Positions 57,367 through 60,233 of a DNA stretch of 64,000 nucleotides are shown in pieces. Positions within the stretch are counted from its first letter, which is position 1, and each line of letters begins with the position of its first letter. The position numbers and the translations under genes are program-made. The notes beneath the pieces were generated by a model, which saw only the letters and a program-made list of their open reading frames with translations, made no database searches and was not told where the DNA came from. Origin of the DNA: Actinocatenispora sera (lineage in GTDB: Bacteria > Actinomycetota > Actinomycetes > Mycobacteriales > Micromonosporaceae); NCBI RefSeq assembly GCF_018324685.1, contig NZ_AP023354.1:682001-746000 (forward strand), read 5' to 3'.

Positions 57367-57404
57367 CCCACCACGCCGTTCGAAGCAGGTGGTGCTCTTC
57401 GGGC

Positions 57405-57471
57405 CCCTTTGCTCTGCTTACTCATGGGAAGCAGTCCAACCTTGCTTACCCATGAGAAGCAGAGCAAAGGG
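57405..57471. repeat. 67-nt long hairpin with two bulged A and nested palindromes
   Basis: 57405-57419 pairs perfectly with 57457-57471, 57421-57428 with 57449-57456, and 57429-57433 with 57443-57447, leaving bulged A at 57420 and 57448 and a 9-base loop: 28 pairs in all. Each half also contains its own palindrome (TGCTTACTCATGGGAAGCA and TGCTTACCCATGAGAAGCA), so a cruciform is possible. It lies between the convergent antiporter and sulfur operon genes and is AT-richer than its surroundings. Confidence 0.75.
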
Positions 57472-57485
57472 AGTGAGAAGAAGTG

Positions 57486-57534: not shown

Positions 57535-57867
57535 TCAGCGGGCGACGGCGACCTCGACCTCGTTGAGGCCGCGGTCGGCGGTCACCGGCACGTCGCCGTT
57601 GCCGGCCCGGGACAGCGCCCGTACGGTCCAGGCGCCGGGCGCGGCGAAGAACCGGAAGGCACCGTCGTCGGACGCCACGACCTCCGCGGTGAACTCGCCG
57701 GTGCCGTCCAGCAGCCGTACGTAGGCGCCGGACACCGTGGCGCCGTCGGCGGTGACGGTACCGGCGATGACGGTCTCCTTGGTCAGGTCGACGCTGGCCG
57801 GCAGCGCTGCCGCCTGGTCGGGTGCGCCGCAACCGGCCACGGTGAGCGATGCCTGCTGTGCGGTCAT
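57535..57867 (-). CDS. DUF1416 (SseC-like) protein
   Basis: A 110-residue beta-rich protein matching actinobacterial SseC/DUF1416 (GCGAPDQAAALPASVDLTKE, VIAGTVTADGATVSGAYVRL, AAPGAWTVRALS). It is always found beside the CysA-type rhodanese (Rv0814c beside Rv0815c) and its function is unknown, presumably in thiosulfate or sulfane-sulfur handling. ATG 57867 follows AAGGAGG and lies one base after the rhodanese stop. Last gene of the operon headed by the cysteine leader at 59563. Confidence 0.93.
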   Translation of the reverse strand: MTAQQASLTVAGCGAPDQAAALPASVDLTKETVIAGTVTADGATVSGAYVRLLDGTGEFTAEVVASDDGAFRFFAAPGAWTVRALSRAGNGDVPVTADRGLNEVEVAVAR

Positions 57868-57868
57868 G

Positions 57869-58723
57869 TCAGGCCTCCTTGCTGCCCGGCTCGTCGCCGA
57901 GGGCGACCGGCACACCGACGAGCGAGCCGTACTCGGTCCACGAGCCGTCGTAGTTCTTCACGTCGGGCTCGCCGAGCAGTTCGTGCAGCGCGAACCAGGT
58001 GTGCGACGAGCGCTCCCCGATCCGGCAGTACGCGATCGTCGGCTTGCTGCTGTCCAACCCGGCCTCGATGTACAGGGCGCGCAGTTCGTCGTCGGACTTG
58101 AAGGTGCCGTCCTCGTTGGCGGCCTTGCTCCACGGCACGTTCGCCGCGGTCGGTACGTGCCCGGCGCGCTGCGACTGCTCCTGGGGCAGGTGCGCGGGTG
58201 CGAGCAGCCGGCCGGCGTACTCGTCGGGCGAGCGGACGTCGATCAGGTTCTTGACGCCGATCGCGTCGACGACCTCGTCCCGGAACGCGCGGATCGACAG
58301 GTCCTGCGGCTTCGCGGAGTACTGCGTGGCGGCGCGCTGCGGCAGCTCGGTGGACAGCTGCCGGCCGTCCAGCTCCCACTTCTTGCGGCCACCGTCGAGC
58401 AGCTTCACGTCGCCGTGCCCGTACAGCTTGAAGTACCAGTAGGCGTAGGCGGCGAACCAGTTGTTGTTCCCGCCGTAGAGCACGACGGTGTCGTCGTTGC
58501 CGATGCCCCGGCTGGACAGCAGCTGCTCGAACTGCTGCTGGTTCACGAAGTCGCGGCGTACCGGGTCCTGCAGGTCGGTCTTCCAGTCGAGCTTGATCGC
58601 GCCCGGCAGGTGGCCGCCGTCGTAGGCGGTGGTGTCCTCGTCGACCTCGACGAAGACGATCCCCGGCTGTCCGAGGTTCTTTTCGGCCCAGTCGGCCGAG
58701 ACGAGTGCGGTGTCGCGACTCAT
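57869..58723 (-). CDS. Thiosulfate sulfurtransferase (CysA/SseA-type rhodanese)
   Basis: A 284-residue two-domain rhodanese that transfers sulfane sulfur from thiosulfate to thiophilic acceptors. The inactive N-terminal domain (EVDEDTTAYDGGHLPGAIKL) is followed by the catalytic domain, with the active-site loop YCRIGERSSHTWF carrying the nucleophilic Cys. It corresponds to M. tuberculosis CysA2 (Rv0815c). ATG 58723 has GGGAGAA upstream. Between DUF4395 and DUF1416 genes in one operon. Confidence 0.95.
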   Translation of the reverse strand: MSRDTALVSADWAEKNLGQPGIVFVEVDEDTTAYDGGHLPGAIKLDWKTDLQDPVRRDFVNQQQFEQLLSSRGIGNDDTVVLYGGNNNWFAAYAYWYFKLYGHGDVKLLDGGRKKWELDGRQLSTELPQRAATQYSAKPQDLSIRAFRDEVVDAIGVKNLIDVRSPDEYAGRLLAPAHLPQEQSQRAGHVPTAANVPWSKAANEDGTFKSDDELRALYIEAGLDSSKPTIAYCRIGERSSHTWFALHELLGEPDVKNYDGSWTEYGSLVGVPVALGDEPGSKEA

Positions 58724-58755: not shown

Positions 58756-59304
58756 TCAGGGGGTCGATGGATGGACACGGGCGGCGAGCGGGCGGTGGGT
58801 GGCCCGCCGGTACAGCAGGTAGACCTCGCAGCCGAGGCACAACCCGAACGCGGCGTTCAGGAACGCCGCGACCAGCGCCAGCGCGGCGGCGACGACGCCC
58901 AGCGCGACGACTCCGGTACCGAACCCGACGGTGGCGAGCGCCCCGAACACCAGCCCGACCGCCTGCGCGAACCGCACCGGCGCGACCGGCTCCAGCTCGC
59001 TCGGGCGGCCCCGGCGCGGGGCGATCGCGTAGCGGTACACCAGCCCGTACGGCGCGGACCTGGGCCCGGCGAAGGCGCCGATCGCGAACACGACCGTCTG
59101 CACGCCGGCCACTATCGCGGCGGCGAGCGGCGAGGCGAACGCGAGTACCAGGACGGCGACGAACACCGCGGTGGTCACCCAGGCACCGAACCGCGGGCCA
59201 CGCGGATCGAGCAGCCCGGCGGCCGGCCGGGCCGACGGGGGCGGCCCGGCGGGTTCGGACACGGGCGAGGGCGGCTGGGGTTCGGAAACGGACGATGACG
59301 GCAT
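58756..59304 (-). CDS. DUF4395-family membrane protein
   Basis: A 182-residue protein with a Pro/Ser-rich N-terminus and four helices (AWVTTAVFVAVLVLAFASPL, AIVAGVQTVVFAIGAFAG, then two near the C-terminus). The last contains GLCLGCEVYLL, a conserved CxxC at the membrane edge typical of DUF4395. Linked to rhodaneses and thioredoxins across actinobacteria, it may move sulfur or electrons across the membrane. ATG 59304 follows GGAGGTG. First structural gene after the cysteine leader peptide. Confidence 0.92.
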   Translation of the reverse strand: MPSSSVSEPQPPSPVSEPAGPPPSARPAAGLLDPRGPRFGAWVTTAVFVAVLVLAFASPLAAAIVAGVQTVVFAIGAFAGPRSAPYGLVYRYAIAPRRGRPSELEPVAPVRFAQAVGLVFGALATVGFGTGVVALGVVAAALALVAAFLNAAFGLCLGCEVYLLYRRATHRPLAARVHPSTP

Positions 59305-59474
59305 GGCACACCTCCGGCAGACGAGTACGCGTCTTTGCGGCGACTATGCCGAAATCAGACCCGCGGATCCACTGCGAGTCAACAGATCGGTACCGATGGT
59401 TCGCACACCGTGCTCAGTACGGGCGGAATGAGTGCCCGGAATCCAGATCGAGCAGCTGCGGGGTGCGCGAGACG

Positions 59475-59502
59475 GTCGTCGCCGGTCAGGCCGGGCGACG
59501 AC
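59475..59502 (-). promoter_or_regulatory. Attenuator-like hairpin overlapping the end of the cysteine leader
   Basis: On the complement, the arm starting in the last Cys codon (59502-59491) pairs with 59485-59475 across the leader stop codon, leaving one bulged C. A ribosome stalled at the Cys codons for lack of Cys-tRNA would cover the first arm. The ~170 bases from here to the DUF4395 start contain no gene; TTGACT (59377-59382), 17 bases, TCTGAT (59354-59359) could be a second promoter. Confidence 0.55.
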
Positions 59503-59563
59503 AGAGGCAGGTGGCGACGCGGCAATGGTCGATCGGCCGGCGTCGGGTGAGCAGCATGCTCAT
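59486..59563 (-). CDS. Cysteine-rich leader peptide of the sulfur operon
   Basis: ATG 59563 opens 25 codons containing LTRRRPIDHCRVATCLCRR, the pattern of actinobacterial leader peptides found before sulfur-assimilation genes (RR-x2-D-x2-RV ending in clustered Cys). TAGCGT (59570-59575 on the complement) ends six bases before the ATG, so the mRNA is leaderless. Three Cys codons, two within the last seven residues, would stall ribosomes when Cys-tRNA is scarce. Related leaderless poly-cysteine ORFs act as cysteine-responsive attenuators in mycobacteria; here that role is inferred. Confidence 0.75.
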   Translation of the reverse strand: MSMLLTRRRPIDHCRVATCLCRRPA

Positions 59564-59727
59564 GCCGTGACGCTAACACGCCGACCCGTGGTCGCTCACC
59601 CTCGAAGTGACCCCGCTCACCGTTCTTCTCGGTACGGCGCCGATCGGCGGACAGCGGCGGGACGTACCCGTCCGTACCGGTGACGAACCGTCCGACCGGT
59701 TCGGCCCGGCTCGGTACGCTGCCGGCC

Positions 59728-59937
59728 ATGACCGTCAAACGCACCATCGTGTTCGACGACGAGGCCGACTTCCTGCTGCGCCAGGTGGCCGCCCGGGCCG
59801 GCATCTCGGCGTCCGCCTGGCTGTCCGCGGTGACCCGGCGGGAGGCGCTGCGCACCGGCGCCGCCGCGCAGCCCGACGCCGAGCAGCACTGCCGGTACGA
59901 CGAGCAGGAGTTACTCGCCGCCGAGGGCGCGGCGTGA
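59728..59937 (+). CDS. Antitoxin of a MazEF-like pair
   Basis: A 69-residue protein with a ribbon-helix-helix-like N-terminus (TVKRTIVFDDEADFLLRQVA, AGISASAWLSAVTRREAL) and an acidic tail expected to wrap the toxin. ATG 59728 lies seven bases after TACGCT (59715-59720), a leaderless start. The stop shares a base with the toxin ATG (TGATG). Named from its position and fold, not from a close homologue. Confidence 0.75.
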   Translation: MTVKRTIVFDDEADFLLRQVAARAGISASAWLSAVTRREALRTGAAAQPDAEQHCRYDEQELLAAEGAA

Positions 59938-60233
59938 TGCGCGGCGCCATCTACCGCTACGAACCGAAGGGGTCGCCGCGCCGGCGCGACGTGCTGATCG
60001 TGTCCGCCGACGGAATCAACGACTCCACCCGCAGCTGGCTGTACGCGCTGGATGTGCGCGACGGTGACTCCGGCGACCTGCTCACCGTGCGGCTACCGGA
60101 CGGCCGCTGGGCGGACGGCTGCTCGCTCACCCGGGTGTACCGGGATTGGCTGGCCGGCCCGCCGCAGGCGCACATCGGCGAGGAGACGCTGCGCGACGTG
60201 GAAGCGATGCTGCGCAGCGGCCTGGACCTCTGA
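59937..60233 (+). CDS. MazF/PemK-type mRNA interferase toxin
   Basis: A 98-residue protein beginning MRGAIYRYEPKGSPRRRDVL and IVSADGINDSTRS, matching the MazF fold (M-x-RG-x-IYR, then R-P/R-x-VLIVS). Family members cut mRNA at short sites and are neutralised by the upstream antitoxin. The usual basic loop is present (RRR); the later part is divergent, so activity is not certain. Coupled to the antitoxin by TGATG. Confidence 0.8.
   Translation: MRGAIYRYEPKGSPRRRDVLIVSADGINDSTRSWLYALDVRDGDSGDLLTVRLPDGRWADGCSLTRVYRDWLAGPPQAHIGEETLRDVEAMLRSGLDL

Follow-up and report, generated by a model that had tools for sequence, protein, structure and literature searches.

Does the DUF4395–rhodanese–DUF1416 operon of Actinocatenispora sera respond to the charging of Cys-tRNA through a short translated leader, and how could a signal from a Cys codon reach a start site some distance away? 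An earlier note on this DNA had described, upstream of the operon, a compact attenuator-like unit made of a -10 box, an ATG, a short frame with Cys codons and a hairpin. We analyzed the unit by folding and by comparison with related genomes. The window is the whole stretch of 64,000 nucleotides of contig NZ_AP023354.1 (682,001 to 746,000), and positions below are those of the window.

A probably leaderless cysteine-containing frame upstream of the operon

The features of the locus are collected in Table 1. The -10 box, the ATG six bases on and the 25-codon frame were all found on the minus strand where they had been placed. The Cys codons had been described as clustered at the end of the frame; they do lie near its end (codons 14 and 19, both TGC, and codon 21, TGT, a spacing of C-4-C-1-C), but they are not adjacent. 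The 5′ arm of the hairpin, here called H1, begins in the last of them as claimed, position 59502 falling within UGU 59503-59501. The start of the DUF4395 gene lies behind GGAGG, 181 nt 3′ of the leader stop, close to the 180 bases estimated before, and Pfam bears out the domains of the three downstream genes in the order proposed.

Table 1. Features of the rhodanese-operon leader and of a second cysteine leader in the A. sera genome
Feature	Position	Strand	Basis or remark
Candidate -35 element TGAGCG	59593..59598	-	17-nt spacer to -10; weak
-10 box TAGCGT	59570..59575	-	6 nt before ATG; leaderless geometry
Leader-peptide ORF, MSMLLTRRRPIDHCRVATCLCRRPA and stop	59486..59563	-	25 codons; ATG 59563-59561
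Last Cys codon (codon 21), UGU	59501..59503	-	proposed stall codon
Segment 1 (5′ arm of H1)	59494..59502	-	folding and comparison
H1, 9 bp, GTCGTCGCC / GGCGACGAC	59502-59494 / 59483-59475	-	stop codon inside
Segment 2, CCGGCGACGACC	59474..59485	-	3′ arm of H1, alternative partner of segment 3; genus-invariant
Segment 3, TTCGGCATAGTCGCCGCA	59336..59353	-	longest invariant stretch in the leader; 30 nt before the gene
Shine-Dalgarno GGAGG of the DUF4395 gene	59311..59315	-	sequence
Segment 4, GGTGTGCCATGCCG	59299..59312	-	Shine-Dalgarno end and DUF4395 start codon; pairs with segment 3 (H3)
DUF4395 gene, first of the controlled operon	58756..59304	-	Pfam PF14340
Tandem-rhodanese sulfurtransferase, CysA2/SseA-like	57869..58723	-	Pfam PF00581 x2; NF008557
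DUF1416 (SseC-like) gene	57535..57915	-	Pfam PF07210
Second leader peptide, MSAAVQRRLVVRRHVDHCRVHSAICCPVA	G000:C1 about 3197370-3197459 (locus L223, about 1480-1569)		upstream of sulfite/nitrite reductase gene; also located at 3197391-3197444

A TAnnnT box stands 6-9 nt before the leader start in 89 of 93 loci, and leaderless transcription thus looks like a conserved design. Across 86 distinct promoters, the stretch that best resembles TTGAC is mostly found 17-18 nt 5′ of the -10 box. Judged from this geometry, transcription in A. sera would start at or next to the ATG at 59563.

Leader genes can boost translation of close downstream genes (PMC4833913), and the frame might accordingly be a constitutive upstream frame that recruits ribosomes for the operon with no sensing of cysteine. 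We consider this very improbable: 181 nt is far too long for reinitiation, and the Cys codons, the choice of UGU and the alternative pairings described below would be left unexplained.

Two further observations concern the surroundings of the operon. A strong inverted repeat at 57396-57481, between the DUF1416 gene and a convergent Na+/H+ exchanger gene, gave weak and meaningless matches to miRNA models on either strand and is probably a bidirectional terminator. On the plus strand (59680-60233), two small overlapping genes of 85 and about 99 aa lie between a thioredoxin-like gene and the Cys leader; their layout is like that of a toxin-antitoxin pair, and they had no Pfam or NCBIfam match.

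The peptide belongs to a known family of cysteine leaders

The A. sera peptide matched NCBIfam NF042933 (Ms5788A family Cys-rich leader peptide) with E = 2e-9 and 36.9 bits, which does not reach the curated cut-off of 45 bits; this cut-off is exceeded in 155 of 201 related genomes. A match to NF042934, "putative leader peptide", was also obtained. Matches to NF042933 were present in 197 of the 201 Micromonosporaceae genomes (183 of the 185 good ones) and in 201 of the 297 genomes of the class. All four genomes of the genus have the peptide, with 84-100% identity to A. sera in the other three. CxxxxCLC is the usual Cys pattern of the family leaders, and the first downstream gene is a rhodanese gene in 81 loci and a DUF4395 gene in seven, the focal genus included.

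Ms5788A is the leader of the mycobacterial cysA2 operon, in line with the papers cited below. Since the A. sera peptide is a homologue of this leader, a known attenuator of that operon, the idea of a cysteine attenuator is not new, and by its sequence the A. sera leader is a divergent member of an already known kind of regulator. The cysA2 leader of M. smegmatis is occupied by ribosomes (Shell et al. 2015, PMC4633059). Such mycobacterial leaders are cysteine-responsive attenuators according to Canestrari et al. 2020, as cited in PMC9094748, PMC9031893 and PMC13236596, and the last of these relays from the same work an action on translation for the mycobacterial orthologue and Cys loci. Our comparisons and what has been published on the mycobacterial orthologue support the earlier reading of the unit as a leaderless attenuator that depends on its Cys codons.

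The Ms5788A leader (Rv0815c, M. smegmatis orthologue) and that of A. sera share a small ORF (predicted to be leaderless in A. sera) with C-terminal Cys codons, the core LTxRRxxDxCRVA and downstream sulfurtransferase/DUF1416 genes. They differ in that the Ms5788A leader has a run of Cys codons in place of C-4-C-1-C, while A. sera has the DUF4395 gene first and a 181-nt leader with an identifiable four-segment switch. The A. sera leader would resemble the polycysteine attenuators of Canestrari et al. 2020, as they appear in the accounts cited above, in a Cys stall within a leaderless frame, which is proposed to free a sequestered ribosome-binding site of the next gene. Their run of adjacent Cys codons is absent from the A. 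sera leader (codons 14, 19 and 21), and the experiments on them were done in M. smegmatis, whereas the A. sera leader is known from sequence alone.

An invariant UGU codon and a conserved peptide core

Among distinct leaders, the last Cys codon is UGU in all 65 from the family and in 135 of 137 from the class. UGC prevails at the remaining leader Cys codons, and the rhodanese genes downstream contain 81 UGC codons and no UGU. Pairing within H1 was ruled out as the general cause of UGU, because in many relatives the stem starts after that codon. In the core LT[KR]RRxxD the amino acids L, T, R, R and D are invariant over the 65 distinct family leaders with varied codons (CGG, AGG, CGC or CGA for R, five codons for L and four for T); therefore the peptide is selected, and not the RNA alone. 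We found no earlier description of an invariant UGU in the last Cys position in the accessible literature, and the UGU preference together with the amino-acid-conserved core is possibly new.

Fixed amino acids encoded by varying codons are also what would be seen if the peptide itself acted, either as a nascent-chain arrest motif (LT[KR]RRxxD...C) that sets the stall in the exit tunnel with Cys as a co-signal, or in trans, and a sirA-type leader has a similar core. Conservation alone does not show arrest, however; the leader-end Cys codons sit where a Cys-tRNA stall is expected, and no role in trans is known. We hold an action of the peptide itself to be rather unlikely.

A ribosome stall governed by Cys-tRNA could still involve the peptide. 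As a tentative idea, which we think more doubtful than probable, a two-part sensor may operate over most of the class: the LT[KR]RRxxD nascent-peptide core would set a codon-specific stall at the obligatory UGU, which would be read by weaker wobble pairing and hence be a more sensitive gauge of Cys-tRNA, and the stall would be coupled to a covarying four-segment RNA switch. No earlier description of a four-segment switch coupled to such a stall was found.

Some leaders depart from the common form. At L060, L061 and L063 the leaders read LTKRRPIDFG-VA-CLC, the first Cys being replaced by Gly, and have no TAnnnT box at the usual place. The loci L064, L065 and L066, from Glycomyces-like genomes, carry paralogous leaders with the core LTRRRHLDFCRVS-VLC and leaderless geometry, with no adjoining rhodanese operon.

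A hairpin around the leader stop codon

H1 has a dG of -18.8 (z = -3.66). None of 200 shuffles was equally stable, and none of 3000 synonymous recodings in which UGU was held fixed reached its stability. Hairpins occur in any GC-rich leader, and of random 31-nt stretches taken from the window about 1.6% match H1 in stability, as would suit a chance coincidence of a frame and a hairpin in GC-rich DNA. The conservation of the peptide, of the promoter geometry and of their position across the family already refutes this explanation, and its probability is negligible.

An H1-like stop-codon hairpin is present in most relatives, with differing sequences; L009 and L010 have one mismatch in H1. Because the register of the stem shifts between lineages, column-wise covariation of H1 is blurred family-wide, and the arms of each hairpin were therefore compared with swapped arms. 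In 46 dereplicated loci the own arms pair better than swapped ones (permutation p < 5e-5), and on aligned loci the covariation score is above that of slid versions. Rfam covariance models matched nothing relevant, either in the window or in 12 related loci.

No U-run is found 3′ of H1, where the sequence is CGUCUCGCGCACC. Since no U-run follows, this GC hairpin is not an intrinsic terminator, and an attenuator of the trp type with such a terminator was ruled out. The A. sera leader resembles attenuators of the trp/ilv type in having a leader peptide rich in the regulatory amino acid and mutually exclusive hairpins; it differs from them in that its output is predicted at the ribosome-binding site.

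A candidate four-segment switch reaching the DUF4395 start

Further structure had been expected between the leader and the first gene. Indeed, segment 3 can pair with segment 4 over the DUF4395 start and, alternatively, with the 3′ arm of H1. Its GTCGCCG (59344-59338) is complementary to segment 2, and CGGCAU/AGUCGCC to segment 4. Three pairings are thereby defined: 1:2, which is H1; 2:3, CGGCGAC:GTCGCCG; and 3:4, which is H3. H3 covers the Shine-Dalgarno end and the start codon with -21 kcal/mol, at a z-score of just -1.69.

Leader identity within the genus falls to about 62% (A. sera versus L011). The blocks TTCGGCATAGTCGCCGCA, CCGGCGACGACC, CGGAGGTGTGC and TCGGTACCGAT are invariant in all four genomes. 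The first three correspond to segments 3, 2 and 4; with runs of 18, 12 and 11 nt, respectively, they are the longest invariant blocks that concern the switch. Column permutation gives p = 0.003 for the 18-nt run. The 7-nt match of 2:3, taken alone, is expected by chance in 22% of simulated leaders. In L009 and L011 the start ATG is replaced by GTG, and pairing with CAU is kept. The fourth block is the core of ATCGGTACCGAT (59386-59397), a perfect palindrome inside the Cys leader that might be a small hairpin or an operator.

In relatives, a conserved box farther downstream is a possible alternative partner of the 3′ arm of H1. This 2:3 pairing has 26 two-sided cells compared to 15.4 in shuffles (reached in 0 of 500), which ignore relatedness, and a covariation score of 0.143 compared to at most 0.087 when slid. 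The box can itself pair with a downstream TGCGAC element, with compensating variants such as GTCGCTC/GAGCGAC, and the 3:4 helix also shows covariation. In L052, another DUF4395-first locus, a like logic is written in other letters: TCGCCGCC pairs with segment 2, and GTCAGG in the ribosome-binding site is a possible partner of CCTGAC. Most loci showed no direct pairing of the Cys codons with the Shine-Dalgarno sequence. In relatives where the rhodanese gene comes first, the 3:4 helix is placed well 5′ of the Shine-Dalgarno sequence, and the output step must therefore differ there.

Such remote 3:4 helices, as well as a hairpin devoid of a U-run, would suit termination by Rho. After the leader ribosome exits at UGA, 166-181 nt of untranslated C-rich leader would recruit Rho, unless recruitment was blocked by the 2:3 fold or by a ribosome halted at UGU. 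Rho was suggested for mycobacterial cys leaders in 2005 (PMC1262725), and the leader gaps are rich in C and poor in G (0.38 C and 0.28 G; C exceeds G in 45 of 46). Yet the A. sera leader has hardly any C bias (0.34 C, 0.29 G), C exceeds G in genes too, the pairing of segments 3 and 4 over the start codon points to translation, and the mycobacterial orthologue is reported, via PMC13236596, to be translational. We regard a Rho route as unlikely.

Folding order

Control of translation through the four segments was considered by folding. Folded up to segment 3 with no ribosome, the A. sera leader forms 1:2; with a ribosome at UGU, leaders of all four genus genomes form 2:3 with 5.5-6.0 bp. In the full-length A. 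sera leader the start codon is buried in 3:4, with an accessibility of 0.02. Even with a ribosome at UGU, 3:4 is favored over 2:3 at equilibrium, with a start accessibility of only 0.02 to 0.16 and a small predicted change, and therefore the switch needs co-transcriptional, kinetic folding. In the full-length fold of L010 the start is not in 3:4 and is open in every state.

Family-wide equilibrium folding with simulated ribosomes raised the accessibility of the Shine-Dalgarno sequence in 8 and lowered it in 6 of 85 loci. Equilibrium folding was dropped as a direct family-wide read-out for want of a consistent change, probably because the relevant contrast is the folding order and, in the focal genus, the start codon.

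A second cysteine leader in the genome

All four genomes of the genus have conserved a second leader, MSAAVQRRLVVRRHVDHCRVHSAICCPVA. Matches were obtained to NF042934, NF042933 and, weakly, NF042936 (Ms4527A family Cys-rich leader peptide; E 0.2). The second leader resembles the rhodanese-operon leader in its core, RRHVD-CRV-SAIC, in having UGU at the equivalent place and in a hairpin that encloses the stop codon, which is strong in three of the four genomes (GGTCGCCTGAGCGACC in A. sera); unlike it, it belongs to another operon and its start is not clearly leaderless. It lies upstream of a sulfite/nitrite reductase gene. The genome thus seems to carry at least two units of the cysteine leader network known in mycobacteria.

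Proposed mechanism and its meaning

Our preferred reading, with a probability of about 0.7, is that the leader attenuates translation through a ribosome stall that responds to cysteine, and that it is an orthologue of Ms5788A, the leader of cysA2 in mycobacteria. The transcript would begin at the leader ATG or next to it, and 70S ribosomes would translate the 25-codon frame. With ample Cys-tRNA, the ribosome would pass UGU-21 and exit at UGA, 1:2 would form, and segment 3 would cover the Shine-Dalgarno sequence and start codon by 3:4 pairing, so that DUF4395 and the coupled sulfurtransferase genes would be poorly translated. With scarce Cys-tRNA, the ribosome would halt at UGU-21 and cover segment 1; segment 2 would then pair with nascent segment 3, and the DUF4395 start site would remain open. 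Sequence and comparison show the promoter geometry, the conserved peptide and hairpin, the invariant segments and their complementarities; from these we infer the transcription start, control by cysteine, ribosome stalling, the direction of control and the folding order.

This proposal would take cysteine attenuation beyond mycobacteria, into a family of large soil actinomycetes that produce antibiotics, and it names the RNA segments that would carry the signal from a Cys codon to a start site 180 nt off. The choice of UGU in 135 of 137 leaders, against rhodanese genes that use UGC only, offers a simple test of how a leader may gauge the charging of a two-codon tRNA.
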